Of a DNA stretch of 64,000 nucleotides, positions 22,799-46,213 are shown piece by piece (the stretch's first letter is position 1; each line of letters opens with the position of its first letter). Source of the stretch: Nitrospinia bacterium (GTDB lineage Bacteria > Nitrospinota > Nitrospinia > Nitrospinales > JAJDAT01); the NCBI GenBank assembly GCA_029261715.1, contig JAJDAT010000049.1, positions 310,001 to 374,000 of the forward strand, read 5' to 3'. The position numbers were made by a program, and so were the translations under genes. The notes under the pieces are model-generated. The model was not told the DNA's origin and searched no databases. It was given only the letters and a program-made list of their open reading frames with translations.

Positions 22799-23185
22799 TT
22801 GAAAAACTAAAAAGGAACGTCGAAGTTCTTAAAATTAAGGAAGTTTTTAAAAATTTTCGTTTTTTTGAATTGGCTACTATCTTTTTCATTATTCGTTAAG
22901 AATAAAGTTTGGAACTTGAGAATCCTAAAAGTTCTCATCCAAGTTATAGCTTTCGAAATGCTAAATGGCAAGGGAATTATGGACCTATTTTCTACCTTAT
23001 TTGAATTAGAAAAAAAAGGGTTTTAAACATTAACATGAGAATTCAAAATTAATGGTATTTCAAGGTGTTATCTGCTATTTTCATAAAATAGAGAAATATG
23101 AATTCAAAAAAACAAAGCCATTTCCCTGTAAAAAACCTATTGCTGTTTTTTTATAAGTGTTTGTTGTCAATAAATTTGAGGATTG
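22799..23185. other. Divergent intergenic region between recA and che operons
   Basis: About 387 bases, strongly A/T-rich, with no gene. It should hold promoters for both the minus-strand thpR-recA-recX unit and the plus-strand chemosensory operon. Besides the candidate SOS box, a 7-bp inverted repeat (CTATTTT 23075-23081, AAAATAG 23085-23091) lies about 95 bases before cheB. I see no clear flagellar sigma-28 or sigma-54 promoter. Confidence 0.5.
22815..22828. promoter_or_regulatory. Candidate SOS (LexA-type) operator
   Basis: GAACGTCGAAGTTC is an imperfect palindrome (12 of 14 positions symmetric; half-sites GAAC and GTTC around a TCGA core), 16 bases upstream of thpR, which heads the recA operon. 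LexA operators of many phyla use GAAC/GTTC half-sites, but the spacing of six here differs from the four of the Bacillus box. The assignment is an inference from position and symmetry. Confidence 0.35.
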
Positions 23186-24208
23186 ATGTCTAGTTTAAAA
23201 GTTTTAATCGTAGAAGACAGTTTAATGGTTCAGGAAGTTTTAAAGGAAATACTTTCTTCCGATCCAGAAATTGAAGTGGTTGGAGTCGCTGGAAATGGTC
23301 AAGAAGGAATCCAAAAAGTCGAAAAATACAAGCCAGATATTATTACGCTTGATATCAATATGCCAATAATGAATGGTTTGGATGCCATTGAGGAAATAAT
23401 GGGAAGTCAGCCGCTTCCAATTTTAGTCGTTTCTAGCTCGGAAGACGCCAAAACGGCTTTTGACGCTTGTTCTAGGGGAGCGTTAGAGGTATTTCCTAAG
23501 AGTAAACTCGATGCCGCTAGGGCAGACGTTTTAATTCACAAAGTTAAATTATTATCCAAAATAAAAGTTATTCGTCGATTTAAGAAGAGAAACAGCAGAG
23601 TTGCAATTCCAGATTTCAATACGGCGCCAGCAACTGAATCGAAGTTTGAAAAAGTAGTGGCTATAGCTTGTTCCACCGGAGGACCAAAGGCTCTTTCGGT
23701 TATTTTATCTGAGTTAAGTCCTCAATACCCTTTCCCAATAGCAATTGCGCAACACATGGAAAATGGTTTTGGAGAGGGTTTTGCGGCTTGGTTAAACGAC
23801 ATCTCAACTAATCCTGTTTGTGAGGCTAAAGAAGGAGATTATTTGGCTTCTGGGAAAGTATATGTTTGTCCCCCTGAATCTAATATGCAAGTTGCAACAG
23901 ATGGGAGAATAAGTTTTCTTGGTGTCAATGAAATGAATTCTTTCAGGCCGTCTTGCGATATTTTATTAGCCTCTTTAGCGTATTCATTTCGAGAGAAAAG
24001 TGTTGGATTGATATTGTCAGGAATGGCAGATGATGGAGTAGCTGGAATTGAAAAGATTAAAACTAGCGGCGGGACAACCATTGCTCAGGATGAAGAAAGT
24101 AGCGTTGTTTTTGGTATGAATTCGCGGGCAATCAATGCGGGAGTTATCGAAAGAGTTTTGCCATTAAACGAAATCGCAATGTATCTCAATCAAATAGCAA
24201 AGAGATAG
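23186..24208 (+). CDS. cheB: CheB, chemoreceptor methylesterase / response regulator
   Basis: A 340-residue protein with an N-terminal receiver domain (phosphoacceptor D56 in TLDINMP) and a C-terminal methylesterase domain. The Ser-His-Asp triad is visible as S163 (ACSTGGPKAL), H190 (IAQHM) and D283 (SGMADDG). It removes methyl groups from, or deamidates, receptor glutamates to adapt the pathway. The TTG at 23183 is in frame, but ATG 23186 follows GAGGA and is the likelier start. It heads the operon, 3 bases before cheR. Confidence 0.95.
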   Translation: MSSLKVLIVEDSLMVQEVLKEILSSDPEIEVVGVAGNGQEGIQKVEKYKPDIITLDINMPIMNGLDAIEEIMGSQPLPILVVSSSEDAKTAFDACSRGALEVFPKSKLDAARADVLIHKVKLLSKIKVIRRFKKRNSRVAIPDFNTAPATESKFEKVVAIACSTGGPKALSVILSELSPQYPFPIAIAQHMENGFGEGFAAWLNDISTNPVCEAKEGDYLASGKVYVCPPESNMQVATDGRISFLGVNEMNSFRPSCDILLASLAYSFREKSVGLILSGMADDGVAGIEKIKTSGGTTIAQDEESSVVFGMNSRAINAGVIERVLPLNEIAMYLNQIAKR

Positions 24209-24211
24209 TTA

Positions 24212-25702
24212 ATGACTATTGAAACGATTAATCAGGGAATAGATGTTTTGCCTTTTAGGCAACTTTTGATTGATCGAATATCTACGGGGTACAAAGAAGA
24301 TACGTTGAATCAATTGCCTGCGGCAATAGTTCAGCGGATGGAATTGAATCAAATAATTAAACCGGCTGAATATTTTTTTCTTTTACAGAAAGACAACGCT
24401 GAATTTACAAAGTTAGTAAACTTGTTAACTGTAAATGAAACCTATTTTATGAGAGAACAGGGGCACTTTAATGTTCTAGTTAACCGTTTATTCCCGGAAT
24501 TTATCAAAAATAGAAAAGGTAACGAAAAGTTTAAAATATTGAGTGCAGGATGCTCTTCTGGGGAAGAGTTGTATTCCGCTTTGATTTCCTTAACTTTAAA
24601 GTTTGGCAAAGAAATATTAAAAACGATACATGCCGAGGGAGTTGATATTGACTCTGAAATATTAGAAAAAGCTAAAAAAGGAATTTATTATCAAAATTCT
24701 TTTAGGAATGTTGATACTTACTTTATCGACGCTTTTTTCTCAGAATATGAAGAGCAATATAAAATTAACGAAAATTTTTTAGATTCTGTTTTTTTTAGTC
24801 AAGTGAACCTTGCGGACTCAAGTTTCTCATTTGATTCAAAGTGGAACGTGATTTTCTACCGCAATGTTTCGATCTATTTCGTTCCAGAAATTAGAAAAGA
24901 AATATTTAATAATTTGGTAAATGCGTTGAAAGAACCAGGATATTTATTTACAGGGATTGTTGAAACAAGTCATCACAACTTTGGTATTTTGCCGTTAGAA
25001 GAAATAGACGATCATTATTTATTTAATAAGAAAAGTGAATTTTTTAATAAAAATAGTATACGGCCTGATAAATTTAAGAAAGCTAAGCGAGATTTACCCT
25101 ACAAAAAGAAGACTCAAAAATTATTTTCTGGTTCTCAGCAAGAAAAACTTAAGAAAGATAATTCAACAAGGAAAATAACAAAGGAAGATTCCTATGAGGA
25201 AGCTTTTCAAAAAGCTTTGGGATTAGCTAAAAGAGGACAAAGACAAAAAGCTTTAGAGAGTATTGAAAGTATTTTTACTAAATGGACTCCTAACGCCAAC
25301 GATTATTTGTTACGCGCTAATATTTTAGTTAGTTTAGAGAAGTTGGATCAAGCTTTAACTGATTGTTTGACTGCATTGGAAATTGAAGAATGGAATCGCC
25401 AGGCATATTTGCTTTTGGGTATTATTTCTCGTTTGAAAAAAAATATTCCGGAAGCGGTTAAGCGCTTTAAAGGAGCTATTTATATTGAATCGACCTGTTG
25501 GTTATCTCATTTTTATCTTGCCGAGATATTTATAGAAAATGAGAACTTTAGGGACGCAAAAAGAGAATATGGAATATCGCGAAAGCTGTTATTAGAATCG
25601 GGTAGCTCTGAATGTGGTTTGATGATATTTCCTCTTTCATTTAATCAGGAGCAGCTAGTCCATCATTGTGAACGCAAATTAGGCGAACTGGAAAAGCGCT
25701 AA
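24212..25702 (+). CDS. cheR: CheR methyltransferase with C-terminal TPR domain
   Basis: A 496-residue fusion. Residues about 20-270 are a CheR-type SAM-dependent glutamate methyltransferase: VNETYFMREQGHF, the SAM-binding SAGCSSGEELYS, and FYRNVSIYF in place of the common FCRNVLIYF. A basic linker (about 285-330) leads to three or so tetratricopeptide repeats (335-450). TPR-bearing CheR proteins are known from alternative chemosensory systems such as Frz and Pil-Chp. It methylates the receptor encoded at the end of the operon. Confidence 0.93.
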   Translation: MTIETINQGIDVLPFRQLLIDRISTGYKEDTLNQLPAAIVQRMELNQIIKPAEYFFLLQKDNAEFTKLVNLLTVNETYFMREQGHFNVLVNRLFPEFIKNRKGNEKFKILSAGCSSGEELYSALISLTLKFGKEILKTIHAEGVDIDSEILEKAKKGIYYQNSFRNVDTYFIDAFFSEYEEQYKINENFLDSVFFSQVNLADSSFSFDSKWNVIFYRNVSIYFVPEIRKEIFNNLVNALKEPGYLFTGIVETSHHNFGILPLEEIDDHYLFNKKSEFFNKNSIRPDKFKKAKRDLPYKKKTQKLFSGSQQEKLKKDNSTRKITKEDSYEEAFQKALGLAKRGQRQKALESIESIFTKWTPNANDYLLRANILVSLEKLDQALTDCLTALEIEEWNRQAYLLLGIISRLKKNIPEAVKRFKGAIYIESTCWLSHFYLAEIFIENENFRDAKREYGISRKLLLESGSSECGLMIFPLSFNQEQLVHHCERKLGELEKR

Positions 25703-25712
25703 AACTTTACCT

Positions 25713-28073
25713 ATGGCTTTTGATAAGAAAAAATTCATTCATAAATTTGTTGATGAAGCCAACGATCATATAGACAGGCTGAACGAAGGTTTAGTGAGTT
25801 TGGAATCTAATCCTGGGGATGAAGAAACCGTAAGCGAAATCTTTCGATCTGCGCATACTATTAAGGGTTCTTCTAGAATTTTAGGATTAATTTCTATAAG
25901 TGTAGTAGCGCATAAACTAGAAGACGCTCTTTCGGCTTTAAGAGATGGAAAGATTTCTCAAAGCAAAGTTTTATTTAATTTGCTTTTTAAAGCTGCTGAT
26001 TTGATCTCGGAGTTTGTTCAAAGAGTTCAAGAAGGCGAGGAAGTTGAAGATGATACCACTGAAATTTGTGAACGTTTAGAAAAGGCCGCTTTAGGCGAAC
26101 TAGAAGATGAGGCTGTTACCGAACCGCCTCCAGAAAAAATAGTTGAAAAAGCTGAAGAAAAAGAAAGTTCCTTTAACAAAATAGAAAAGGAAGAATCTCT
26201 TGAAGAAGAAACTCCTGTTGTTAAAACAACCACTGAGCAAGTTTCTTTAAAAAAAGAATCTTCCCCCCCATCAGATGTATCTGTTCCTAAAGACGTTTCA
26301 GTCTCTCCGTCTTCTCCTAAACCCCAAGCGCAAAAACCACTAAAGAAACCTCGAGTTTCTGAGACAGTTCGAGTCAAAACGGAAAAGTTAGATGAAACAG
26401 TTAATTTAATGGGTGAAATTGTTTCCAATCATATCCGTTTAAAGCAAAACTGGGTTGATATAAACGAAATAGGAAAAGTTTCTAAGAAATACTTAGAAAC
26501 CTTTTCAGGTTTTACGTATGAAGACGGGAAGCTAAGTTCAGAGGATAGTCGTGATCTTTTTGAACAATTTCAGGGCATTTATGGGAAGTTAAGGCAACTT
26601 TCAGTTTGGACCAAAGATGTTTTAAATTTTCAGACTTTATTGACAGATCAGTTGCGTGAAAAAGTTTTGAAAATGAGAATGTTACCTTTGTCCACTGTCT
26701 TAGACGCTTTTCCAAGAATGGTCCGCGACATATCTTCTACATGCAATAAAGAGGTTAATTTTTTAGTCGAAGGCGGAGAAACTGAGCTAGATAAAAAAAT
26801 TATAGAAAAAATTGGAGACCCATTATTACATATGATCCGCAACAGCGTCGATCATGGTATTGAAGCTCCTGCCGATAGAATACGGGATGGTAAGCCTGAA
26901 GCTGGAACCATTAGATTAAAGGCTTCCTATGAAGGCGGTAATGTTTTGCTTGAATTGCGCGACGATGGTCGTGGAATTCCTTTGAGAAAGATCAAGGAAA
27001 AAGCCTTGGCAAAAAAAATGTTTGGTGAAGAAATGCTGAACAATATGACCGAAAATGAAATCGTTAATTTGATTTTTAGACCCGGGTTTAGCACTAGCGC
27101 TGCAATTACGGATGTTTCGGGACGGGGAGTAGGAATGGATGTCGTTCGAGAAAACATCGTTATGAACTTAAAGGGATCTATTCAGGTTGAAACGGTAGAA
27201 GGGAAAGGAACTTGTTTTTTTATAAGGTTGCCGTTGACCCTTGCCGTAATGCGCGTTTTACTGATTTCTGTTTCAAATCACAAGTTTGCTCTTCCTTTAG
27301 ACTCGGTTAAAGAAATAGTTAAAGCAAGTAAAGAGCAAATAATTAAGGTCGTAGATAAAAGAGCGATTTCTTTGAGGGACGAAATCATTCCTATTGTAAA
27401 TTTGGACTTTGCTCTAGACTTGCCTGTAAAAAGTAATGGACAGTCAGAAGAAGTTAATATTGTGCTTGTAGAGATGGGAAACGAATGCTTAGGACTAGTG
27501 GTTGATACAATTTTAAGCGAAGAAGATATGGAAATTAAATCTCTACCCAACCACATGAAAAATAATGAAATAGTTTCAGGAGTTACTTTGTCGGGTAAAA
27601 ACGAAGTTGTGCTAGCTCTACACGTGCCTAAATTGTTTTTTATTGCTAAGGACGAAAATCCCGATAAATTGACTCCAGAATCCGAAGTCAATTTTATTGA
27701 AGAACAAAAACATAATATATTAGTTGTTGACGATTCCGAAAGCGCTCGCGAAGTGCAAAAGAGTATTTTAGAGTCTTTTGGCTATAAGGTTGCGCTTGCT
27801 GTGGATGGTGTAGATGGGTATAAGGTAGCGCAGGAGAAACAATTCGATTTAGTGATATCCGATATTGAAATGCCGAGGATGAATGGATTTGAATTTATCA
27901 AGAAACTAAAGATGGAAGATTCCTATCGACACACGCCAGTTATTGTCGTTAGTTCACGGAATGAAGAATTATATAAAAGGAAGGGAATGCAGGCTGGCGC
28001 TGATGCATTTATTGTAAAAAGCGGATTTGATCAATCTAAATTGTTGAAAATGGTGCAAAACTTAATACATTAA
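25713..28073 (+). CDS. cheA: Hybrid CheA histidine kinase with C-terminal receiver
   Basis: A 786-residue kinase. The order is an HPt domain (phosphorylated H48 in SAHTIKGSSRILG), an acidic Pro/Ser/Lys-rich linker (about 130-215), dimerisation domain, HATPase (N box LLHMIRNSVDHGIE, then DDGRGIP and GRGVGMD), CheW-like domain, and a C-terminal receiver domain (about 655-786, phosphoacceptor in VISDIEMP). No separate P2 CheY-binding domain is apparent. CheA-REC hybrids occur in FrzE and ChpA type systems, where the attached receiver tunes or sinks phosphate. Confidence 0.95.
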   Translation: MAFDKKKFIHKFVDEANDHIDRLNEGLVSLESNPGDEETVSEIFRSAHTIKGSSRILGLISISVVAHKLEDALSALRDGKISQSKVLFNLLFKAADLISEFVQRVQEGEEVEDDTTEICERLEKAALGELEDEAVTEPPPEKIVEKAEEKESSFNKIEKEESLEEETPVVKTTTEQVSLKKESSPPSDVSVPKDVSVSPSSPKPQAQKPLKKPRVSETVRVKTEKLDETVNLMGEIVSNHIRLKQNWVDINEIGKVSKKYLETFSGFTYEDGKLSSEDSRDLFEQFQGIYGKLRQLSVWTKDVLNFQTLLTDQLREKVLKMRMLPLSTVLDAFPRMVRDISSTCNKEVNFLVEGGETELDKKIIEKIGDPLLHMIRNSVDHGIEAPADRIRDGKPEAGTIRLKASYEGGNVLLELRDDGRGIPLRKIKEKALAKKMFGEEMLNNMTENEIVNLIFRPGFSTSAAITDVSGRGVGMDVVRENIVMNLKGSIQVETVEGKGTCFFIRLPLTLAVMRVLLISVSNHKFALPLDSVKEIVKASKEQIIKVVDKRAISLRDEIIPIVNLDFALDLPVKSNGQSEEVNIVLVEMGNECLGLVVDTILSEEDMEIKSLPNHMKNNEIVSGVTLSGKNEVVLALHVPKLFFIAKDENPDKLTPESEVNFIEEQKHNILVVDDSESAREVQKSILESFGYKVALAVDGVDGYKVAQEKQFDLVISDIEMPRMNGFEFIKKLKMEDSYRHTPVIVVSSRNEELYKRKGMQAGADAFIVKSGFDQSKLLKMVQNLIH

Positions 28074-28159
28074 TTTTTATATATACCTGAGCTAGAATTA
28101 TACGTGAACGTTTTAATCTTAGTTACAATTAGGGAAATGAATTAGAAAGCGGAAAAAGA

Positions 28160-30409
28160 ATGGATCCTAATAATATATTAATTGTAGACGACGACAGTTT
28201 TGTCCGTGAAATATTGGTCGATATCTTAGAATCTGAAGATTTCAAAACTGAAACTGCGGAAAACGGTTTAGACGCTCTTAACAAATATAAGGAAGATGGT
28301 TCTAAATTTGATTTAGTTGTTTCTGATATCAATATGCCAATTATGGGTGGAGTTGATTTGATTAAGTCGCTTCGTAACGATGTTCAATCTGAAACTCCAG
28401 TCGTTGTTTTATCAGGAAATAACGAAGTTGCTATTGCCATAGACGCGATCAACAGTGGCGCAAGCGAATATATTTTGAAGGATGAGAATTTACAAGAGAC
28501 AATCATTTTAGCTATTAACAAGGCTTTAGAAAAAAAACGAATTATAGATGAAAATCGTGATCTAGTTAAGAACATCACCGAAAAAAATAAAGAAATGGGA
28601 GGTATCATTCACCGTATGACAGAGTTAGGAACAGCTCTTTCTGCGGAGAAAAATTTTCAGAACTTAATGGAAATTATCATTTCTAACGCTCGTGAATTAA
28701 CGTATGCGGATGCAGGTACCTTGTATTTAATCGAAAATGGAAAACTATCCTTCAAAATAGTTCAGAACGATACTTTAAAAATTCATTTAGGTGGAAAATC
28801 TAGCGAAGAAATTAAGTTTCCCCCAGTAGAAATAAAAGAATCTAACGTTTCAGGTTATTCGGCCTTAAAGAAAGAGGTTGTTAATATTCCAGATGTTTAT
28901 TCCTCGGAATTGTTTGATTTTACCGGACCCAAAAAATTCGATCAGACTTCTAACTATAGATCTAAATCAATGTTGGTAGTTCCTATGGTAAATCGAATGA
29001 ATGAGGTTGTTGGCGTTCTTCAATTGCTGAATTCTAAAGATTCTGAAACAGGTGAAGTGGTCACATTTTCAGCAAATTCTGAAGAGTACATCAAAGCCTT
29101 AGGGTCTCAAGCTGCAGTAGCTGTAAATAATTTGTTACTTGAAGCGAAAGCGGAAAAACTATTTGAAGAGATTTTAGATATAAAAAATTACAATGAAAGC
29201 ATCCTTGAAAGTCTTACTAATGGCGTTATTACATTGGATGCTAATAATTTGATTATTAAATGTAATGCCGCTGTTTTAAGGATTTTAGAGGCCCAAGAAG
29301 ATCAAATTATTAATCAATCTGCGCAGAAATTTTTTGCACAAAATAATCGCTGGGTATTGGATAACTTAAAAAGGGTTATTCAAATGGGATCCCCGGCCAT
29401 AGTTATGGATACCGAGTTGGTTTTTGATGATGATCGCGTTGTTCCTTTAAACCTTACGGCAGTTCCCTTGAAAAATGCGAAGTCTGAATTAATTGGGTCC
29501 ATGTTAGTTCTAGAGGATATTACTTCTGAAAAGCGGATGAAAGGGACCCTTGCGAGATATATGGATAAGGATGTGGCTGAGCAATTGATGGAAGGCGGAG
29601 ATGATATGCTGGGCGGCCAAAGTCAGGAAGCTTCAGTTTTGTTTTCTGATATTCGGAGCTTTACAACCCTTACCGAAAAATTAGGTCCGGCGGGGACTGT
29701 TGCAATGTTAAATGAATATTTTACCGAAATGGTTGAGTATATTTTTAAATATAAAGGAATTCTTGATAAATATATAGGAGACGCAATTCTAGCTGTTTTT
29801 GGAGTTCCTTTTACGAACGAGCAAGATCCCGAAAATGCCGTAAATGCTGCAATTGGGATGGTTAAATCTCTTAAAGAGTTTAATGCAAAGAGAATTTTAG
29901 TGAATAAAGACCCTATCGATATTGGAATTGGAGTTAATACGGATACTGTTTTGGCTGGAAATATTGGATCTGAAAAAAGGATGGATTATACCGTTATTGG
30001 CGATGGGGTTAATTTAGCTGCGAGACTAGAAGGGGCCACCAAGGCTTATGGAGCAAAGATTTTGATTAGCGAATCCACGAAAAATAAGTTAACTCAAGAC
30101 CATATATACCGCGAAGTTGACAAATTAGTTGTAAAAGGAAAAACTCAACCCGTTAGTGTTTTTGAGGTTTTAGATTTTCATGACGAATCAACTTTTCCGA
30201 AAATGCAGGAATGTATAGAAATATTTAACGAGGGGTATCAATCTTATCTTAGGCGCAATTGGGACGAAGGCATTATGTTTTTTGAAGAAGTGTTGGCGAT
30301 CAATCCAAATGATAAACCAGCATCATTATATGTTGAACGATTGCAGCTTTATAAAGAGAATCCACCTGCCGATGGCTGGGACGGTTCTTTTGTAATGACC
30401 ACTAAATAA
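28160..30409 (+). CDS. Response regulator with GAF, PAS and adenylate cyclase domains
   Basis: A 749-residue signalling protein. A receiver domain (1-120, D56 in VVSDINMP) is followed by a GAF domain (about 155-325), a PAS domain (about 340-455) and a class III nucleotide cyclase domain (about 475-640). The two metal-binding aspartates are in LFSDIRSFTTL and KYIGDAILAVFG; the Lys of DKYIGD and MDYTVIGDGVNLAARLE suggest ATP rather than GTP as substrate. The C-terminal 90 residues resemble a TPR-like helical end. Between cheA and cheW, it could turn CheA phosphorylation into cAMP output. Confidence 0.93.
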   Translation: MDPNNILIVDDDSFVREILVDILESEDFKTETAENGLDALNKYKEDGSKFDLVVSDINMPIMGGVDLIKSLRNDVQSETPVVVLSGNNEVAIAIDAINSGASEYILKDENLQETIILAINKALEKKRIIDENRDLVKNITEKNKEMGGIIHRMTELGTALSAEKNFQNLMEIIISNARELTYADAGTLYLIENGKLSFKIVQNDTLKIHLGGKSSEEIKFPPVEIKESNVSGYSALKKEVVNIPDVYSSELFDFTGPKKFDQTSNYRSKSMLVVPMVNRMNEVVGVLQLLNSKDSETGEVVTFSANSEEYIKALGSQAAVAVNNLLLEAKAEKLFEEILDIKNYNESILESLTNGVITLDANNLIIKCNAAVLRILEAQEDQIINQSAQKFFAQNNRWVLDNLKRVIQMGSPAIVMDTELVFDDDRVVPLNLTAVPLKNAKSELIGSMLVLEDITSEKRMKGTLARYMDKDVAEQLMEGGDDMLGGQSQEASVLFSDIRSFTTLTEKLGPAGTVAMLNEYFTEMVEYIFKYKGILDKYIGDAILAVFGVPFTNEQDPENAVNAAIGMVKSLKEFNAKRILVNKDPIDIGIGVNTDTVLAGNIGSEKRMDYTVIGDGVNLAARLEGATKAYGAKILISESTKNKLTQDHIYREVDKLVVKGKTQPVSVFEVLDFHDESTFPKMQECIEIFNEGYQSYLRRNWDEGIMFFEEVLAINPNDKPASLYVERLQLYKENPPADGWDGSFVMTTK

Positions 30410-30472
30410 TAATTTTGCGACAAAAGACATTTTTGATTATTCATTTTAGTTTGAAGAGTATGGGGGATTGCT

Positions 30473-31033
30473 GTGGGCGAAGAAATTGAAAAAAGAAAAA
30501 GCGATCGAATACTTGAAGCGATAAAAAAACGTTTGGATGAAAAGCAAACTATCCAAGTTGAAGAGAAAAAGGTTGAACTTGTCGTATTTACATTGAACGA
30601 CGCCTTTTATGCATTTTATGGGAAAGACGTTAAAGAAATTCTTTCAGTATTAACTATTTACTTTGTTCCAGGGACTCCAAAATATATTTTAGGAATTGTT
30701 AATGTCCGTGGGGATATTCAATCTGTGTTGAATATCAGGACATTTTTAAATATACCGGAACAAGGATTAACTGAGGGAAAAGGACGGATTGTGATTGCTG
30801 AGAAAAATGGCGTACGATCTGGAGTTCTAGTCGATTCTGTTGTAGATGTTGTCGAAGTGCCAGAGGAGTCTATTAAACAAGCGATTTCAACTTTGAATGA
30901 AGAGATTCGATATTTTGTTGTTGGAGAGACAACGTATAAAAACAATAATGTCGTTTTGTTAGATATAGGAAAGGTTTTTGAAAAAATATCTGAAGGTAAA
31001 ATCGAACCATCAGCTGAAATCCCAAATAAATGA
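30473..31033 (+). CDS. cheW: CheW coupling protein 1
   Basis: A 186-residue protein with a charged coil of about 38 residues before a CheW domain: LVVFTLNDAFYAF, the LGIVNVRGDIQSVL core and GVLVDSVVDVVEV. It bridges chemoreceptor and CheA. The start is GTG 30473, with GGGGGA at 30461-30466 as ribosome site. It overlaps the next cheW-like gene by 4 bases (ATGA), showing translational coupling. It is clearly paralogous to the CheW at 39844-40392. Confidence 0.93.
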   Translation: MGEEIEKRKSDRILEAIKKRLDEKQTIQVEEKKVELVVFTLNDAFYAFYGKDVKEILSVLTIYFVPGTPKYILGIVNVRGDIQSVLNIRTFLNIPEQGLTEGKGRIVIAEKNGVRSGVLVDSVVDVVEVPEESIKQAISTLNEEIRYFVVGETTYKNNNVVLLDIGKVFEKISEGKIEPSAEIPNK

Positions 31034-31521
31034 GTGGAGTTGAAACTAAATCAAATAGAGAGTCTGATCAAGTTTCCGATGATGAAATTCGCCTATTGAT
31101 TTTTAAAATTATGGGTGTCTGTTTTGGCGCAGATATGGAACAAATCGAAGAGATGGTCGATTTTTCTCAAGCTCAACAAGAAGATTGGGATATTAGAAAC
31201 TTTACAGAGGCTATTTCCTTTAGAGATATTGAGGTTGAATATAAAAAACCAAAAGTGATTTTAATAAAAGATAGCGACCAAGACGTTGGTATTGTTATTG
31301 ATCAACCGGAAAACATTGTAAATATTAATATTAAATCGATAAGATTGCTGCCGCCTCTTCTTGAAAACCATAAAACGGTAGACGCTATATGGGCTGCAGT
31401 GTTTTTGGGTGAAGAATTAGCTTTGTTAGTTGATTTTTATCGGCTTCAAAACTCTTTACCCAAAATAGAGAATCAGAAATTGTTGGAAAATTCTGAAGAT
31501 GCTGAAGTTGAATCAAATTAA
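31030..31521 (+). CDS. CheW-like protein 2
   Basis: A 163-residue CheW-like protein with an acidic N-terminus (about 20 residues). The fold pattern is kept (LLIFKIMGVCFGADMEQIEEMVDF at the start and DQDVGIVIDQPENIV later), but the central GxxxxRG motif that contacts the receptor is replaced by SFRDIEVEYKKPKVI, so receptor or CheA contact may differ. It is translationally coupled to the first cheW. It may act as an accessory or competing coupler. Confidence 0.8.
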   Translation: MSGVETKSNRESDQVSDDEIRLLIFKIMGVCFGADMEQIEEMVDFSQAQQEDWDIRNFTEAISFRDIEVEYKKPKVILIKDSDQDVGIVIDQPENIVNINIKSIRLLPPLLENHKTVDAIWAAVFLGEELALLVDFYRLQNSLPKIENQKLLENSEDAEVESN

Positions 31522-31554
31522 ATTTGTAATTGCATAATAATTAAGAGGTGGATT

Positions 31555-31692
31555 TTGACGACAACGCGCAAACTTTTCAAAGCCTGCAGTATTGCGGTCA
31601 AAAACTTTTATCGTAGTTGTTTCTATTCTGATTCGCAGGCAGTAAACCGTCGTTTGATTAATAACGAATTGGTCCGGGAGGACGTTAAATGA
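31555..31692 (+). CDS. Small 45-residue ORF coupled to the chemoreceptor gene
   Basis: A TTG start at 31555 follows a good ribosome site (AAGAGGTG, 31543-31550). The frame runs 45 codons without interruption and its TGA stop (31690-31692) overlaps the chemoreceptor ATG at 31689 in an ATGA junction. The product is basic, with two cysteines, beginning TTRKLFKACSIAV and ending LVREDVK. No family is recognised. It may be a genuine small protein or a leader peptide controlling receptor translation. Confidence 0.5.
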   Translation: MTTTRKLFKACSIAVKNFYRSCFYSDSQAVNRRLINNELVREDVK

Positions 31693-34124
31693 AGAACTGG
31701 TCTTTAAACAAAAAAGCAATATTCGTATTTAGTTTGATGATCGTAGTTATGGGGATTTGCGCTTACGTCATTTTTGACTCTTTAAGTTCAGCTCAAAAAG
31801 ACGCGGATATAACTAACGCTCTAGGAAGACAAAGAATGTTAAGTCAAGCTATGGGTAAGGCTGCCTTAGGAAATGCTATGGCTAAAAGCCGTAAGCAAAA
31901 TATTGTTCAACGCGTCATGTCTTTGGATCGTTATATTACTCAAATGAGAGGGACATATACAAAGGAAGTAATAGGACCAGCCAAAGAAAAAGATCTCACA
32001 ATTAGTATGGACCCTGAATCCGAAGGACATCCTGCAATTCCATTCCCAGCTACTTTGACTCGAATGGTCAACGCTAAATTTGGAGCAGGAAGAGATTTTA
32101 CTATCGATATAATTTCTCCAGATCCAGTAAACCCTAATAAGGGGTTAATGACGGATATGGATAAAGAAGCTTATGACTTTTTGACAAAAAAATCGAAGCG
32201 CGTTTATACAAAGACTTTGGAATCAGATAATAAGTTATATATCAGATTATATACTGCGGATAAAGCTACCGTTCAGGCTTGTGTCGATTGTCATGTGGCT
32301 TTGAAAGGCGGTAAAAAGTTTACTATCGGCGATGTATTTGGTATCCGAAAGTACAACTTGTTGTTTTCAGCCGACATTGCAAGAGGTAAGGGTGAATTAA
32401 ATGCAAGTTTGGTAGAGTTTGATCGCGCTAAAGAAATTTTTAAAAAAACCTTGCGCGCTATGCGAAAGGGAGGGGAATACCCTACGGATATGGGGCTTAA
32501 AGCGACGGCTTTTATAAATTCCATAAATAATGAATCAATTCAAGATAACCTGGAGGAAGTAGATAGAGTTTTTTCCAAATTCTTGGCGGCAGTGGATAAA
32601 CTTCTTACCTCAGAAGTCGATTCTCCAAAGTATAGAGATGCGCAACAAGAAATCTTGGTTTTATCTAATGAGTTACGAGATAAAAGCAACAAAATTGTAG
32701 AATTGTATAACCGTCTCGCGAATGAAAATCAAAAACGCATAAAGAGCACGGTTATAGTTTTTATCATCCTGACATTAACGGCTTTAATTTGCATAGCTTA
32801 TTTCTTTTCGACTTCTGTCGTAAAACCGGTTCGCAAAATTTCTGGAGTTATGGGTGAGATAGCTAAGGGAAATTTCTTGCAAGAAAATTTGCCGGTTAAT
32901 TCTGAAGACGAAATTGGAATTTTGTCCAATACATATAATACTATGTTAGGCACTATGAAGGAGATAGTGAATCAAGCAAAAGATATAGCTGCAGGCGATT
33001 TATCGAAGACTTATGAGTTGAAGGGAGAGCTTTCTATAGCCTTTGGGAAAATGACTCATGAACTTAGAGATAAACAAAAAGCGGATATTGAGTTTAAAGA
33101 AATGGCTACAGAGCGACAAGATCAGGCTGAAGATTTGAAAGATAAGGTTGACGCTATTTTGGAATGCGTGAGCGCTGCGGCTAAAGGCGATTTGAGTAAG
33201 CATATTGACGTAAAGGGAGAGTCTGCTATTGGACAAATGGGAGAAGGTCTGGAAATGTTCTTTGATAATTTGTCGGTGAACATGAAAGGAATAGCTAATA
33301 TGGCTAACGATTTAGCTTTATCCGCTAAAGAAATTTCTAGTTCTGTACAAGACCAGGCTTCAGTCTCGGCTGAGCAATCTGCTTCAGTAACTGAAATTTC
33401 TTCTACGGTTGAAGAGCTTTCCGCTTCGTCAAATCAAGTAGCGGAAAATGCCGATTCTGTAGCTCGGATTTCGACTGATTCGTTACATGATTCAGAACGT
33501 GGTATGAAAGCTATTGGGTCATTGAAGCTTAAAATGGATGAGATTTCTGATGATAATCAAGTTGGAATGAAAGAAATTGTCGAATTAGGTAGAAAATCAA
33601 ATGAAATTGGCAAGGTTATGGAGATTATTAACAATATTGCGGATCAAACTAAGTTAATTGCGTTCAATGCCGCTATTGAGGCCTCCAGCGCAGGCGAAGC
33701 AGGAAAACGTTTTGGGGTTGTAGCGGTTGAAATTCGCCAATTAGCCGATAATGTAATGGATTCGACGGGTGAAATTCAAAGTAAGATTGACGAAATTCAA
33801 CAGGCAATTAATCGTTTGGTGATAAATTCAGAACAAGGATCAAGTCGAATTAAAGAAGGAAATATGTTGGCGGGACAAACGATTGAAGAATTGGAGAGGT
33901 TGGTTGACAGAGCTAAGAGCGCTGCAGATGCGGCATCTCAGATTTCCCTTTCAACAAAGCAGCAAAAAACTGGAACAGACCAAGTATTGTTGGCTTTAAA
34001 AGAAATTGTTAACGGAACGCGACAATCGTCTGCCGCAATTAAGCAAACCTCAAACGTGACGCATAAATTGTCTGAAATGTCAGAAAAACTTAATGAATTA
34101 GTTAGTAGGTTTAAACTGAATTAA
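31689..34124 (+). CDS. Methyl-accepting chemotaxis protein with heme-type sensor domain
   Basis: An 811-residue receptor. Membrane helices lie at about 10-30 and 350-375. The periplasmic region starts with NALGRQRMLSQAMGKAAL, like the PilJ/NarX type input domain, and carries C198-V-D-C201-H202, a c-type heme motif set in a Tll0287-like (DUF3365) domain. One or two HAMP segments follow (379-470 and about 480-540), then the signalling domain with the conserved hairpin tip (IADQTKLIAFNAAIEA). It likely senses redox state or a gas ligand and drives the CheA above. ATG 31689 follows GGGAGGAC. Confidence 0.93.
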   Translation: MKNWSLNKKAIFVFSLMIVVMGICAYVIFDSLSSAQKDADITNALGRQRMLSQAMGKAALGNAMAKSRKQNIVQRVMSLDRYITQMRGTYTKEVIGPAKEKDLTISMDPESEGHPAIPFPATLTRMVNAKFGAGRDFTIDIISPDPVNPNKGLMTDMDKEAYDFLTKKSKRVYTKTLESDNKLYIRLYTADKATVQACVDCHVALKGGKKFTIGDVFGIRKYNLLFSADIARGKGELNASLVEFDRAKEIFKKTLRAMRKGGEYPTDMGLKATAFINSINNESIQDNLEEVDRVFSKFLAAVDKLLTSEVDSPKYRDAQQEILVLSNELRDKSNKIVELYNRLANENQKRIKSTVIVFIILTLTALICIAYFFSTSVVKPVRKISGVMGEIAKGNFLQENLPVNSEDEIGILSNTYNTMLGTMKEIVNQAKDIAAGDLSKTYELKGELSIAFGKMTHELRDKQKADIEFKEMATERQDQAEDLKDKVDAILECVSAAAKGDLSKHIDVKGESAIGQMGEGLEMFFDNLSVNMKGIANMANDLALSAKEISSSVQDQASVSAEQSASVTEISSTVEELSASSNQVAENADSVARISTDSLHDSERGMKAIGSLKLKMDEISDDNQVGMKEIVELGRKSNEIGKVMEIINNIADQTKLIAFNAAIEASSAGEAGKRFGVVAVEIRQLADNVMDSTGEIQSKIDEIQQAINRLVINSEQGSSRIKEGNMLAGQTIEELERLVDRAKSAADAASQISLSTKQQKTGTDQVLLALKEIVNGTRQSSAAIKQTSNVTHKLSEMSEKLNELVSRFKLN

Positions 34125-39843: not shown

Positions 39844-40392
39844 TTAATTAGGTAAGGTTTTACGCAAGACGTTCAAAGAGTTTAAAAGAGTTACAGTGTG
39901 GTTGTCATAATCTAATTCACCCGCTACCCAATCCTTAAAGTCGTGATAAAGAGTGGATCCTGCGTCTCTTATTTGACTTTTTTTAATATCGATCACGTCT
40001 AATACAGAACTAGCAAGTATCCCTCCACGGATATCTTCTTTTTCCAAAATCATGATTCGATTGTTAAGGTTTTTTTCTTCAGCAGGTAGTCCTAAGAAAT
40101 CTCCAATTTCCAAAACCGATTCAATTTCTCCCCGGATGTTGACTAACCCTAATATATGCTTAGGCGCAGTGGGAACTGGATTGATTTTTTTGATAGGAAT
40201 GATTTCTGAGACGTCCAATCCTTTTAGCGCAAAATAAGCTCCGCGGATTTCGAATATTACTAAAATTATTAATGGTTCCTTTACGACACCAGTAGCGCCT
40301 TTCTTTTCGCGAATTTTTTTGATTCGTTTAACAATTCGCGAGGACTTTTCTTTTGGGTTTTGATCGGATGTCATTTCTGTTTCTTTTGCCAA
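39844..40392 (-). CDS. CheW coupling protein 3, linked to the caspase operon
   Basis: A 182-residue CheW protein with a basic Lys/Arg-rich N-terminal extension of about 38 residues. The core is intact: LVIFEIRGAYFALKGL, HILGLVNIRGEIESVL and GILASSVLDVIDI. It is clearly paralogous to the CheW at 30473-31033. It begins 12 bases after the stop of the caspase-like gene, so it is almost certainly the last gene of that operon rather than part of the main che operon. It may couple CheA to a separate receptor. Confidence 0.92.
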   Translation of the reverse strand: MAKETEMTSDQNPKEKSSRIVKRIKKIREKKGATGVVKEPLIILVIFEIRGAYFALKGLDVSEIIPIKKINPVPTAPKHILGLVNIRGEIESVLEIGDFLGLPAEEKNLNNRIMILEKEDIRGGILASSVLDVIDIKKSQIRDAGSTLYHDFKDWVAGELDYDNHTVTLLNSLNVLRKTLPN

Positions 40393-40404
40393 AATAAATG
40401 GCGC

Positions 40405-41856
40405 TCAATTTTCAATAAGTAAATTCCAAGTATAATCTGGAGTTGCGGATAACAAATCCATAGAAAGATTTAATATATCGCCTTTACGGAAACACGGTTT
40501 TGATTCTAAATAAGATTCCTTTGGAATTCCATCCTTATCGTAAAAAGTAAGACGGATGCCGGGTCTTCCTTTTATAAACCACCCTGATCCTGATTCCATC
40601 TTACACATTAATCGAACATTCAAACATTTATTAGTACCGCATTCTGTTTCTTTAACCTTTAATACTTTTACTGCTTTATTTTCAGGAAGCTGCAAACTAT
40701 ATTTTATAGGATCTTGTAGTTTTTTTCTAATTTCAATCCGGGTGAGCTGATTTATACGATCGGTTTTTTTTCGACTTTGTTTGACTGATTCAATTTCTTC
40801 TTGAAGTTCGCGTTTCAATAAAGCTAATTCCTGAAGTAGTTTTTCTTGTTTTTTTAATTCTTCTTTTCGTTTTTCTTCAAGGTTTTGTTTCTTTCCTCTG
40901 AGTTGTTTTGATAGTTTAGTTACGCGATCAGAAATAGATATTGGGAAAACAAAATCTCCCTGATCAAGAACTGCGTCTCGTAATTTCCCGTATTGTGGAA
41001 CTTGACTTCCTTTAGAGTAATTAGCAACGACATTTTCTAAAAATTGACCCAATTCGGAGCCGGTAATATATCCATCTCGGTTCAAGTCTCCATCTCCATC
41101 AAAAGCGTGGACGAATTGTCGTCGAAAAATACTTTCGTCAGGAACTGATTGATTGGCGCGACCAGCGGAAATAAATTGCCGAACAGGTTTTCCTGTTTTT
41201 TCTTTAATAATTTGAGGGACGCTACGGCTAGTGGCGAAAATAGAACCGGCAAAGCAACTATCAAAAATGAATAAAGCATGTTTGGACTGAATGGCGCGTG
41301 CGTATACTTCAATGTTTTGCATGCTCATAGCATGACGTAAAAATCCTCGTTTATCTATATTTGGATTTGGAGCGCCTCTTGGGACAATGAATCCCATTTC
41401 TGTTCCTCCATATTGAGGAACTAACGTGTGACCGTGGCCGGCAAAATAAAACAATAATCTGTTTTTCTCCGCAAGACCATATCGGTCTATAAAGCTTTCA
41501 AATGCTTGATTAAGCTCTTCGCGTTTTGGATCCATAATAACTTCAACCGAAAATCCTAATGTCTCAAGAACTTCTTTTACTGATTTTATGTCTGAAATGA
41601 CTCCAGATAAAGAAGGCCACAAGCCTTCATAGTCGCTTATTCCAATTAACAATGCATGACTTTCATTGTATAGACCAACGGTGTTTCCTTCTGAGTCAAT
41701 GATTGGGACAGGAATAATACCGCGATTTACCGGGCTATTTTGGTTATTGAAGTGTGATGATTTAGATACGGTGGGTTTGTTTTGTTCCAAACTTGGTCCA
41801 GCACACCCTAAAAAGTAGATTAAAAAAGCGGCGGTAATTTGGAGATGCAATTTCAT
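40405..41856 (-). CDS. Caspase-like (peptidase C14) lipoprotein with EF-hand loop
   Basis: A 483-residue protein. Lipobox FLGC at residues 15-18 predicts lipid anchoring. The caspase fold has HALLIGISDYE, the catalytic histidine in YFAGHGH (H141) and the catalytic cysteine in FDSCFAGS (C201). A 12-residue EF-hand loop follows at 257-268 (D257, N259, D261, Y263, T265, E268), which implies calcium binding. A charged coiled coil (about 305-360) leads to a C-terminal domain with three or four cysteines. The frame extends to 41955, but ATG 41856 gives a proper signal peptide. It lies between the LRR and CheW genes. Confidence 0.9.
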   Translation of the reverse strand: MKLHLQITAAFLIYFLGCAGPSLEQNKPTVSKSSHFNNQNSPVNRGIIPVPIIDSEGNTVGLYNESHALLIGISDYEGLWPSLSGVISDIKSVKEVLETLGFSVEVIMDPKREELNQAFESFIDRYGLAEKNRLLFYFAGHGHTLVPQYGGTEMGFIVPRGAPNPNIDKRGFLRHAMSMQNIEVYARAIQSKHALFIFDSCFAGSIFATSRSVPQIIKEKTGKPVRQFISAGRANQSVPDESIFRRQFVHAFDGDGDLNRDGYITGSELGQFLENVVANYSKGSQVPQYGKLRDAVLDQGDFVFPISISDRVTKLSKQLRGKKQNLEEKRKEELKKQEKLLQELALLKRELQEEIESVKQSRKKTDRINQLTRIEIRKKLQDPIKYSLQLPENKAVKVLKVKETECGTNKCLNVRLMCKMESGSGWFIKGRPGIRLTFYDKDGIPKESYLESKPCFRKGDILNLSMDLLSATPDYTWNLLIEN

Positions 41857-41941
41857 GAGTCGACGGAATAAAGTTTTTTTACATGATATATCGAATTTAT
41901 TTAAAATCCCAAGAGGTTTATATATTGGAGTTTTATAAAAA

Positions 41942-43030
41942 TTAATGAAATCCAAAGATGGGTTCAGTAAGGTTCCGTAGATTAGGCGTATTTACTAGAT
42001 ATTCCGCTCCTATTGCGCTGATCTTATTTTCTTCTAAGGTTAATATTTTTAATTGGGTTGAGTTTGAGGATTTTGCAACAGCGCGGGCGCCTTCGTCCCC
42101 AATGAAGTTGTAGTTTAAGTCAAGAGTTTCTAGGTTTTTTAAAGTCGAAGATTTAGCTAGCGCTTTAGCTCCTTCATCTCCAATTTTATTGTTCGATAGC
42201 TTTAAAGATTTTAATTGAGAAACGGCTGGAGAATTTGCGATTTGGATTATAGAGGCATCGGTAAGATCGTTGTGAGCTAAATTCAATTCAATTAAATTTG
42301 AAACAAAGGGAGTTTCTAGAAGGGCCTCAATACCTATATCGCCAATGTAATGATTTTCAAGATTGTTTAATACCCCTTTTTTTTGCATTTCTGAAAATTT
42401 AATTTTATGTTCGAACTTTAAAAGCGCTTTTTTGCCACGCAGCCCAATTGGATTGTATGAAAGATATAGTTCCATCAAATTATTTAATTTTTCAGAAGAA
42501 GTTAAGTTGATTGCTCCGTCATCGCCAATATTGTTGTAGCTTAGATTTATTTCTTTTAGTAAAGGCAAAGTATCCGAATTAGCAAGAAACGTAACTCCTT
42601 TAGCGCTTATATTATTCCGATATAAACTTAACGACTTTAATTTTGAGAAAATTGGCGATTTGGCGATCGCATTGACGCCGATATCGGAAATATTATTTTT
42701 GCCTAATTCAAGCGTTTGCAATCCAACCAAATATTTTGATTTGGCTAGTTCAATGATGCCTTCATCGCCAATGCCAGTTTCATATAAAACCAAAGTTTCG
42801 ACGTTTTTAAGTAAGGGGGATTGGGCCAAAAACTTTGCGCCTTCTACACCAATTACTTTTGATTTGATTCTTAATGCGTGCTTATTCCTTCTAACTTTTT
42901 TCTTTACGTATTTTTCTAGTTTTTCAACAGTTATTGGTTCTGAAGCGCCTAATGAAAAAAAACAGCATATTAAAAGCCAAATCCAGGGTTTTGTTTGAAA
43001 TGAAGTGTTTTTGGTTTTTTGCGGAATCAT
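41942..43030 (-). CDS. Exported leucine-rich repeat protein 2
   Basis: A 362-residue protein with a signal sequence (hydrophobic about 17-29, ending SLGASEP). The rest is nearly all leucine-rich repeats of the ribonuclease-inhibitor kind, with units of about 24 residues and a consensus near L-x-L-x-x-N-x-I-x-x-x-G-A-x-x-(L/I)-A-x-S. One longer stretch (about 200-225) breaks the register. Start and the stop of the upstream LRR gene are directly adjacent (TAAATG), so translation is coupled. Such repeats form protein-binding curves. Confidence 0.88.
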   Translation of the reverse strand: MIPQKTKNTSFQTKPWIWLLICCFFSLGASEPITVEKLEKYVKKKVRRNKHALRIKSKVIGVEGAKFLAQSPLLKNVETLVLYETGIGDEGIIELAKSKYLVGLQTLELGKNNISDIGVNAIAKSPIFSKLKSLSLYRNNISAKGVTFLANSDTLPLLKEINLSYNNIGDDGAINLTSSEKLNNLMELYLSYNPIGLRGKKALLKFEHKIKFSEMQKKGVLNNLENHYIGDIGIEALLETPFVSNLIELNLAHNDLTDASIIQIANSPAVSQLKSLKLSNNKIGDEGAKALAKSSTLKNLETLDLNYNFIGDEGARAVAKSSNSTQLKILTLEENKISAIGAEYLVNTPNLRNLTEPIFGFH

Positions 43031-44041
43031 TTAGTTTTCTTGTAGTCCTTCTAATTCACGGCCTGTTGAAACTTCTCCTCGATCAAAAGGAAAAATAGTA
43101 TTAGTTAGATTTTTTAAATGGGGTGATTCTTTGATGGCTTGAACCCCTTTGTCGCTTATTTCGTTACCCCAGACGTTTAGAATTGTTAGAGATCTTAGGT
43201 GAACTGATTGAGATAAATCTTTAGCTCCTTGGAAATTAAATTGGTTCCACTGTAGATCTAATTTTTTTAATGTAGAAAGGTTTTTTGTGCCAGCTAAATA
43301 TTTTATTCCTTCATTGCCTAATTGATTTCTTTTCAGATTTAGCTCGCTTAAACTATTTATGTTAGCGGAAGTTTTCCAGCGTTTCATTCCTCTTGAACCA
43401 ATTTGATTTTTCGAAACGTCTAGTATTTTTAAACTTGGTAAGTTAGAAGATTCTGCAATTGCGGCAAACCCTTCGTCCCCAATATGATTATCTCCTAGTA
43501 GTAATACTCTTAAAGCTTTGAAACCTGCTTTTGCAATTGCCTTAGCTCCATTTGGCCCAATTTGGTTTCCAGAAAGATCTAGATGTTCTAATTGAGCTAG
43601 GTTTTTTGACTTAGCGATTCCATCAACGATACCTTTATCTCCAACCTGATTACCCCATAAGTTTAGATAAGTTAAGCTTGTTACGTTTTTGGAGAAAGCT
43701 AGAGCTATTATTCCATCTGATTCAATATTGTTTTGGAATAGGTCTAAAAATTTAAGTTTAGTGAGGTAAGGAGAAGCAGCCAAGGCCTTTGCTCCGATAT
43801 TGGTAATATCATGAGTTTGTAGCCTAAGGAATTGGACGTTACGTATCAGCTTTGATTGAGATAAAAATTTTATTCCAGAATCTTTTATGATTCCGCTTCC
43901 TCCCATATCTAATGACGTCCTGTTTTTTGATAATCCATTAAAGATAAATTGGTTAATATCAAATGAATAGACTAGAGCGGGGGAGCCGATAAGATAAAGA
44001 AAAAGAAACCACCAAGTTTTTTTCTGCACAATTTTTCGCAT
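43031..44041 (-). CDS. Exported leucine-rich repeat protein 1
   Basis: A 336-residue paralogue of the next gene, with a signal sequence (hydrophobic about 10-26) and about ten ribonuclease-inhibitor-like repeats with the pattern L-x-x-L-D-L-x-x-N-x-I-x-x-x-G. It follows the NHL gene by 18 bases and abuts the second LRR gene. The two LRR genes probably arose by tandem duplication. It is likely a periplasmic or surface protein-binding module. Confidence 0.88.
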   Translation of the reverse strand: MRKIVQKKTWWFLFLYLIGSPALVYSFDINQFIFNGLSKNRTSLDMGGSGIIKDSGIKFLSQSKLIRNVQFLRLQTHDITNIGAKALAASPYLTKLKFLDLFQNNIESDGIIALAFSKNVTSLTYLNLWGNQVGDKGIVDGIAKSKNLAQLEHLDLSGNQIGPNGAKAIAKAGFKALRVLLLGDNHIGDEGFAAIAESSNLPSLKILDVSKNQIGSRGMKRWKTSANINSLSELNLKRNQLGNEGIKYLAGTKNLSTLKKLDLQWNQFNFQGAKDLSQSVHLRSLTILNVWGNEISDKGVQAIKESPHLKNLTNTIFPFDRGEVSTGRELEGLQEN

Positions 44042-44059
44042 CTTTTTGATCTTTGAATT

Positions 44060-46213
44060 TTAAGGAAAATTATGGACTATGAGGTTAACTTCCAAACCAT
44101 CTTGCAAATAGCCAAAATTGTTGATACCCGCAATTGTTGTCACAATACCTTGGGAATCTATTTTTCTGATCCGATTATTGCCACGGTCAGTGACGTATAA
44201 ATTGCCAAATGAGTCAAATGCAATGTCGAGAGGGTTTTGAAACTGAGCATTAACCGCAGGACCTCCGTCTCCAGAAAAACCGTTTTCACCCGTTCCTGCA
44301 ACTGGAATAATTTGACCTGTTTTATCAATTTTCCTAATGCGATGCGTTTGTTGTTCGCAAATATATAATTCATTGTCGGGCGATAATGCTAAAGCACCTG
44401 GAGAACGAATACCTGCAGAAAGAGCGGGGCCATTATCTCCATGATCTACAAAATCGCCGTTTCCTGCAATGATTTCAACTTTATTATTAGAACTTATTTT
44501 GTATATTTTACCAACGCCTGAGTCTGAAACGAACAGGTTACCTTTTGAATCAACTGCCAGTCCGTTAGGGTGAATATCTCCAGGTAGTTCATCCCATGCT
44601 TTTTCCGCTACTTTTGAGATGATTCCATTCGCGTCAATTTTACGAACAAATCGATTAGATCTGTCGGCTATATATAGTTTGCCTGAAGGTCCAACAGCAA
44701 TTGCTCTAATGGCTATAAATGAAGCGTCTAGCGCTTGACCTCCATCTCCATTGGTTCCAGCCAATGCATTTCCAGCAAAGGGTTTTATTTGTCCTTCGGA
44801 ATTAATATGAACAATGCTCCAACCATTTCCATTCCTTCCAACTGCGTATATATCCCCTTTGTTTCCTTTTGCCACAAAGTTTGGTCTTAATAAAGGCGTT
44901 TCAAGAGCCAGTCCCGGAGTTCCACTTTGGCTAGCTTTTCCCGTCCCAGCAAAGGCGTAAATGTTTTTGTTAATATCTATTTTACGCAATCGGTTTTGCA
45001 TTTGATCCGCGAAAATAATTGCTCCGCTATCATTAATTGCAATTCCTGATGGACCTTCTAGTGTTGCTCCTAATGCTGGGCCACCGTCCCCTTTCATTAA
45101 AGATTTTCCATTTCCTGCAATGGTTTTTACTCTGCCGGAAAGAAAGTCAACTTTTCTGATTCGGAAATGAGATCTGTCTACCACGAGCAAACTTTTTTGG
45201 TCTGGCGTAACAGTCAAAGAAAACGGTAAATGTAGATTGGATTGTGATGCGACGCCTTGGTCTCCATTGTAATGTGTTAGACCGGTTCCCATGAATGTGG
45301 TAATAATTCCGTCGGGATCCACTTTTCTGACACGGTTATTATTTCGGTCGGCAATATATATATTCCCTTTATTATCTGTGGTAACGTCGGTGGGGAAGGC
45401 CAGATCCCCTTGTTTAGCAGGTCCATAGTCGCCTCGAATTGCAAAAAGCCCGGTGCCAGCAACAGTATAGATGGTTCCATCTGGATCAATTTTTCGGATG
45501 CGATTGTTTCCTCGGTCTGCGACAAATAAATTCCCTTGATTATCGAAGGCAAGGCCAAAAGGAAATTTTAAAAAAGCTTCATCAGCAGGGCCAAAATCTC
45601 CTCCATAGCTAGCGACCCCCATTCCTGCATAGGTAGTTATAATTCCTTTAGTATTTACTTTTCTAATGCGATTATTAGATCTGTCCGAGATATAAATCTG
45701 TCCAAGTTTATCGATTGCTACATCAGAAGGGAAATGAAGGCTACTTTCAGTCGCGTTTATATTATCGCCTGTATAATTTGGAACGCCATTTCCCGCAATT
45801 GTTGTGATGATCCCATTTGAGTCAATTTTTCGTATTCGATGGTTGTTGCGATCGGCCACATACAGATTTCCCGCGGAATCGAAAGCCAGGCCAGCTGGAA
45901 AATTTAAAGAGGCATTTTTAGCTGGTCCTCCATCTCCTGAAAACGTGGCATGTCCATTTCCTGCAATAGTGGAGATAATTCCGTTTTGGTCAATTTTACG
46001 AATTCTATTTTGGGATCGATGGGAAATATAAATATTTCCGTTGGGATCTGCTGTAATCCCGTCAACTAACGTAAAAATCACAGAGGTTGCTTTTTGCCCA
46101 TCGCCTAAGTTCTTGTGTGAGAATTGGTTTTCCGAAGAAGCTTTTAATGGAGCTCCAAAGGCAAGTACCCCGATTACTATGATTAATTTTCTGAAATAAG
46201 TTAACTTTTGCAT
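44060..46213 (-). CDS. Exported NHL-repeat beta-propeller protein
   Basis: A 717-residue protein with a signal sequence (hydrophobic about 10-24). It is built of about 12 NHL repeats of roughly 56 residues each, with the unit GN(L/I)Y(V/I)ADRxNxRIRKID and then IITTIAGNG and GDGGPA blocks. Twelve repeats fit two six-bladed propellers. NHL propellers usually bind protein or RNA partners. It heads the operon that continues with two LRR genes, the caspase-like gene and cheW. Confidence 0.9.
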   Translation of the reverse strand: MQKLTYFRKLIIVIGVLAFGAPLKASSENQFSHKNLGDGQKATSVIFTLVDGITADPNGNIYISHRSQNRIRKIDQNGIISTIAGNGHATFSGDGGPAKNASLNFPAGLAFDSAGNLYVADRNNHRIRKIDSNGIITTIAGNGVPNYTGDNINATESSLHFPSDVAIDKLGQIYISDRSNNRIRKVNTKGIITTYAGMGVASYGGDFGPADEAFLKFPFGLAFDNQGNLFVADRGNNRIRKIDPDGTIYTVAGTGLFAIRGDYGPAKQGDLAFPTDVTTDNKGNIYIADRNNNRVRKVDPDGIITTFMGTGLTHYNGDQGVASQSNLHLPFSLTVTPDQKSLLVVDRSHFRIRKVDFLSGRVKTIAGNGKSLMKGDGGPALGATLEGPSGIAINDSGAIIFADQMQNRLRKIDINKNIYAFAGTGKASQSGTPGLALETPLLRPNFVAKGNKGDIYAVGRNGNGWSIVHINSEGQIKPFAGNALAGTNGDGGQALDASFIAIRAIAVGPSGKLYIADRSNRFVRKIDANGIISKVAEKAWDELPGDIHPNGLAVDSKGNLFVSDSGVGKIYKISSNNKVEIIAGNGDFVDHGDNGPALSAGIRSPGALALSPDNELYICEQQTHRIRKIDKTGQIIPVAGTGENGFSGDGGPAVNAQFQNPLDIAFDSFGNLYVTDRGNNRIRKIDSQGIVTTIAGINNFGYLQDGLEVNLIVHNFP

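Follow-up and report, generated by a model that had tools for sequence, protein, structure and literature searches.

Bacterial metacaspases and orthocaspases (PF00656) are characterized by a caspase domain with a His/Cys dyad, and the same arrangement is present in the caspase-fold protein (C14) analysed here. Fusion of bacterial caspase homologues to FGE-sulfatase domains is known, their operon partners are varied, and an N-terminal export or membrane segment occurs in a minority of them (PMC3501461). Such FGE-sulfatase fusions were also found here, among the Nitrospinota relatives of C14. In the literature searched, no report was obtained of a bacterial caspase homologue with LRR-NHL or CheW partners. 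The other proteins of the locus have likenesses of their own. Teneurin-type NHL propellers (Pfam PF25021; PDB 9ifo, 7djj, 6g7w) resemble the window NHL protein in blade sequence and fold; the LRR_6 proteins of the STM4015 family (NF038076) are built, like the two window leucine-rich repeat (LRR) proteins, from repeats of ~27 residues; and the CheW of the Nitrospinota chemosensory (che) cluster belongs to the same CheW subfamily as the window CheW. Here, the window denotes the whole 64,000-nucleotide stretch of DNA that was analysed. Its source genome, 5.33 Mb in 52 contigs, is that of a bacterium of the same order as Nitrospina (Nitrospinota), a marine nitrite oxidiser.

It can be observed that five minus-strand open reading frames (ORFs) follow one another closely in the window, as listed in Table 1. 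Pfam assigned them as an earlier note on this DNA had typed them, each domain call being strong: NHL (E = 1.9e-61), LRR_6 in the two LRR proteins (E = 1.2e-43 and 1.8e-34), Peptidase_C14 (E = 2.8e-17, 63.6 bits against a cut-off of 21.4, which places C14 within the family), and a stand-alone CheW domain (E = 4.1e-23, 82 bits against a cut-off of 23.5, residues 45-177 of 182). A literature search on caspase with CheW, NHL or LRR, and on Nitrospina with caspase or LRR, gave no described system of such content, as the note had supposed. The spacing it reported was reproduced for the NHL-LRR1, LRR1-LRR2 and LRR2-C14 junctions (18, 0 and 85 bases); regarding C14-CheW, the 12 bases reported apply only with the TTG start, and the gap becomes 30 bases with ATG 40374, which is at least as likely a start because the match to homologues sets in only at residues 7-16. 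Since the five genes are tightly packed, they may share one transcript without forming one machine. This tight spacing is not special, however, because such packing (same strand, gap of 100 bases or less) is shared by 28 of the window's 54 pairs of adjacent ORFs. Minus-strand terminator-like sites were absent from the block junctions, those matched being located inside genes, and promoter-like matches numbered 21, against 20.9 expected by chance. Judged by eye, the products of NHL, LRR1, LRR2 and C14 start with a hydrophobic export-like segment, and CheW has no such segment.

Table 1. Positions of the five-gene block and of the nearby chemosensory cluster in the window.
Feature	Position	Strand	Evidence
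NHL, exported, 717 aa, 12 blades	44060..46213	-	Pfam, AlphaFold model, relatives, tree
LRR1, exported leucine-rich repeat protein, nine repeats of ~27 residues	43031..44041	-	
LRR2, exported leucine-rich repeat protein	41942..43030	-	
C14, caspase-fold probable lipoprotein, 483 aa from ATG 41856	40405..41856	-	
CheW adaptor; start TTG 40392 or ATG 40374	39844..40392	-	
Chemosensory cluster, context only, outside the five-gene block	23183..34124	+	

The AlphaFold model of NHL (mean pLDDT 89, pTM 0.72) displays 12 four-stranded beta-propeller blades, which bears out the 12-repeat propeller proposed earlier; these blades probably form two six-bladed propellers. The best fold and sequence matches are a teneurin-like protein, SUPPRESSOR OF QUENCHING 1 and NHLRC2. 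The extreme C-terminus (window 44060-44110, consensus DGLEVRITVHNFP) is strongly conserved past the last blade, in a part of the model where confidence is low. Full-length orthologues, 53-62% identical, are present through much of the order, and the close public relatives of the gene are nearly all labelled Nitrospinaceae, Nitrospina or Nitrospinota. The neighbourhoods of NHL orthologues were compared at 28 public Nitrospinota loci with flanks of up to 10 kb. An LRR gene is located directly upstream of NHL at 23 of the 25 testable loci and directly downstream at 10 of the 28. In many relatives, tryptophan genes (trpE, G, D, F, B and A products by Pfam) and a GT2 glycosyltransferase gene precede the upstream LRR gene and then NHL, which is often followed by an LRR1-type gene, proA and an M50 peptidase gene. 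This position of the order-core NHL-LRR genes directly after tryptophan biosynthesis genes (e.g., L141:4312-16954) provides no clue to function.

The window NHL groups in the tree with the copies of G008 contig 1 and G023 (support 100/98), and all three lack the upstream LRR gene and have LRR1 downstream. LRR1 orthologues directly follow NHL in relatives. Moreover, LRR1 clusters with its copies in G008 contig 1 and G039, and so does LRR2, with moderate supports from a quick search (SH-aLRT 88 and 89). In G008, NHL, LRR1 and LRR2 are all situated within ~13 kb, and the two LRR genes are separated by FGE-sulfatase genes. The G039 contig begins inside LRR1 and also contains LRR2, with an FGE-sulfatase-like gene in between. 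Because the trees are concordant and the copies share contigs in G008 and G039, NHL-LRR1-LRR2 is an inherited set, and the NHL-LRR association is real and ancient. LRR proteins as such are common, the two LRR queries matching 49 and 33 times in the source genome. LRR2 is related to an order-wide core LRR that sits between an LpxD-like gene and accA, and the source genome has its own copy so flanked elsewhere on the contig of the window.

C14 carries the dyad His141/Cys201 and an EF-hand loop, DLNRDGYITGSE, at residues 257-268 (numbered from ATG 41856), followed by a long coiled-coil stretch and then a C-terminal domain of no known kind. A lipobox-like FLGC was noticed by eye, and the EF-hand-like loop is the only feature pointing to putative calcium binding. 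The single-sequence fold was of low confidence (mean pLDDT 39.6). Scanning genome contigs with the C14 protein as query gave no relatives; among 77 Nitrospinota genomes, 13, the source genome included, yielded a homologue at E <= 1e-20, and identity in the caspase part is mostly 47-62%. Loss of the catalytic His/Cys in relatives, which the earlier note had named as grounds for abandoning its reading, did not occur, because the GHG and DSC motifs of the dyad are kept in all 16 close C14 sequences; the EF-hand loop is kept in 14 of the 16. The C-terminal domain of the relatives is FGE-sulfatase in many and Lcl_C or TPR-PEGA in others. Judged from sequence, C14 belongs with other exported caspase homologues to a family that is dispersed among Nitrospinota. 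A conserved EF-hand loop and interchangeable C-terminal domains can be observed across this exported family (L051, L053, L060, L061 and others). C14 probably works as a lipoprotein protease with envelope proteins as its substrates; the catalytic residues are seen in the sequence, and the activity is inferred.

Regarding CheW, the source genome has 11 CheW-domain matches. The window CheW, a putative array adaptor with predicted CheA and receptor binding, is 42% identical to the che-cluster CheW (30473-31033), 9 kb away, and 36-44% identical to the orthologues of the latter, in comparison with 47-64% between the che-cluster CheW and its own orthologues. In the tree it occupies a long branch inside the che-cluster CheW subfamily, and no closer relative was found in the 77 Nitrospinota genomes. 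It is best read as a diverged duplicate (paralogue) or a captured adaptor, which most likely serves the nearby che array in the cytoplasm. For the proposed link of CheW to the chemosensory array, the support is sequence kinship with the CheW of the nearby cluster, and no tie to the exported proteins was found. The cluster comprises CheB, CheR, a hybrid CheA, a REC-GAF-PAS-nucleotide cyclase, CheW, a CheW-like protein and an MCP. Its cyclase is encoded at 28160-30409, and cluster homologues are present in relatives of the order, several of them with a cyclase gene. An FG-GAP repeat protein (38449-39816) is the convergent neighbour of CheW, the true start of which is probably further downstream because the listed TTG start overlaps the preceding gene.

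Analysis of the neighbourhoods demonstrates that the five-gene adjacency does not recur in the relatives examined, all of which belong to families other than that of the window. The flanks of the 28 public NHL loci, taken to at most 10 kb, contained zero C14 and zero CheW genes. Near ~33 other C14 loci, covering 470 kb, neither an NHL nor a CheW gene was seen, and there was one LRR gene only; one further NHL locus in this batch had been chosen for NHL itself. In G008, G039 and G023, neither a C14 of the window family (E <= 1e-20) nor a CheW match (E <= 1e-25) is present. Furthermore, in none of the 76 other Nitrospinota genomes does C14 or CheW stand beside NHL-LRR genes. As none of the other genomes examined has C14 or CheW in the company of NHL-LRR, it is improbable that the five genes constitute a single conserved system. 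Of the arrangement put forward earlier, only the NHL-LRR part recurs in relatives: the association of NHL, LRR1 and LRR2 is retained, and the membership of C14 and CheW is not.

We consider it likely that the block is composite, comprising a conserved NHL-LRR-LRR envelope module, a caspase of a dispersed family and a CheW serving the che array, rather than one machine. NHL-LRR1-LRR2 would be a diverged second version of the Nitrospinota envelope module, in which, as fold and export segments suggest, the exported double propeller and the LRR solenoids most likely cooperate, forming a complex for binding or scaffolding that is located in the periplasm or at the cell surface. The C14 lipoprotein would cut envelope proteins, and CheW would serve the che array from the cytoplasm. 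We read the caspase as lineage-specific in the block and CheW as recruited to it. Accommodated in this way, the envelope role suggested earlier is plausible for NHL, LRR1 and LRR2, but a five-gene functional system is unsupported.

Against the composite stand the tight spacing, the lack of a minus-strand terminator-like site in the junctions, the often short contigs of relatives, which truncate some neighbourhoods, and the moderate LRR-tree supports. Within the window's own family of Nitrospinota, moreover, C14 and CheW could be conserved members of the block. In a rival reading, the caspase would work with the NHL-LRR module only, as its protease for maturation or shedding, and CheW would be a bystander. 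The 85-base gap to LRR2, the export of a caspase with conserved dyad and EF-hand loop, and the presence in G008 and G039, between the two LRR genes, of FGE-sulfatase, a domain that many relatives of C14 carry as a fusion, are consistent with such a tie, yet no C14 gene was found beside NHL elsewhere and FGE-sulfatase genes are very common, so that we regard it as unlikely. A link to FGE-sulfatase genes was set aside because the source genome (G000) has 34 such domain matches, one of which is at 35630-36700 in the window. A true five-gene system of its own lineage, with the propeller and LRR proteins sensing an envelope signal, the caspase processing a partner and CheW coupling to the array, would agree with the tight co-orientation, the kinship of CheW with the window's che cluster and the export segments assigned by eye to four products. 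It appears similarly unlikely in view of an adjacency conserved neither in the 76 other Nitrospinota genomes nor at the 28 public NHL loci, of a block with no membrane-spanning transducer joining the periplasm to CheW, and of nearest three-gene sets that lack C14 and CheW.

In another scenario for the Nitrospinota family of the window, which we hold to be very improbable, an exported calcium-binding caspase joined the ancient propeller-LRR complex and a co-transcribed CheW tunes the cyclase-bearing array; if true, it would represent a caspase-linked envelope sensing pathway. Least credible of all, with hardly any likelihood, is an intracellular death or phage-defence system assembled from caspase, LRR and propeller parts. 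The domain vocabulary and a weak PADLOC caspase match (E = 1.7e-11) favour it, whereas the repeat proteins and the caspase have export segments, the block contains no ATPase, death-fold or nuclease gene, and PADLOC gave no other match of note. A known anti-phage defence system was rejected, PADLOC having returned, besides that weak caspase match, only a weak match to a repeat. The preference for an envelope role over intracellular immunity, already expressed in the earlier note, is shared here.

With the composite reading, an exported NHL-LRR gene set that spreads through the order of Nitrospina is identified, an order-wide set not described in the literature searched, together with an exported EF-hand caspase family with interchangeable C-terminal domains in Nitrospinota. 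As the five-gene reading fails the neighbourhood test, a false claim of a caspase-chemotaxis connection is avoided. In comparison with known systems, each component of the block departs from its closest counterpart. Unlike the PF00656 caspase homologues described above, the window C14 carries no fusion to a known type of domain and possesses an EF-hand loop. The window NHL differs from teneurin-type propellers in standing alone: it is exported, has 12 blades and a conserved tail at its C-terminus, and contains no further domain. The window LRR proteins have an export segment, in contrast to the STM4015 family, and score far below the cut-off of the STM4015 model. Finally, relative to the che-cluster CheW, the window CheW is encoded on the opposite strand and outside the che cluster, with a sequence that has diverged along its own long branch.
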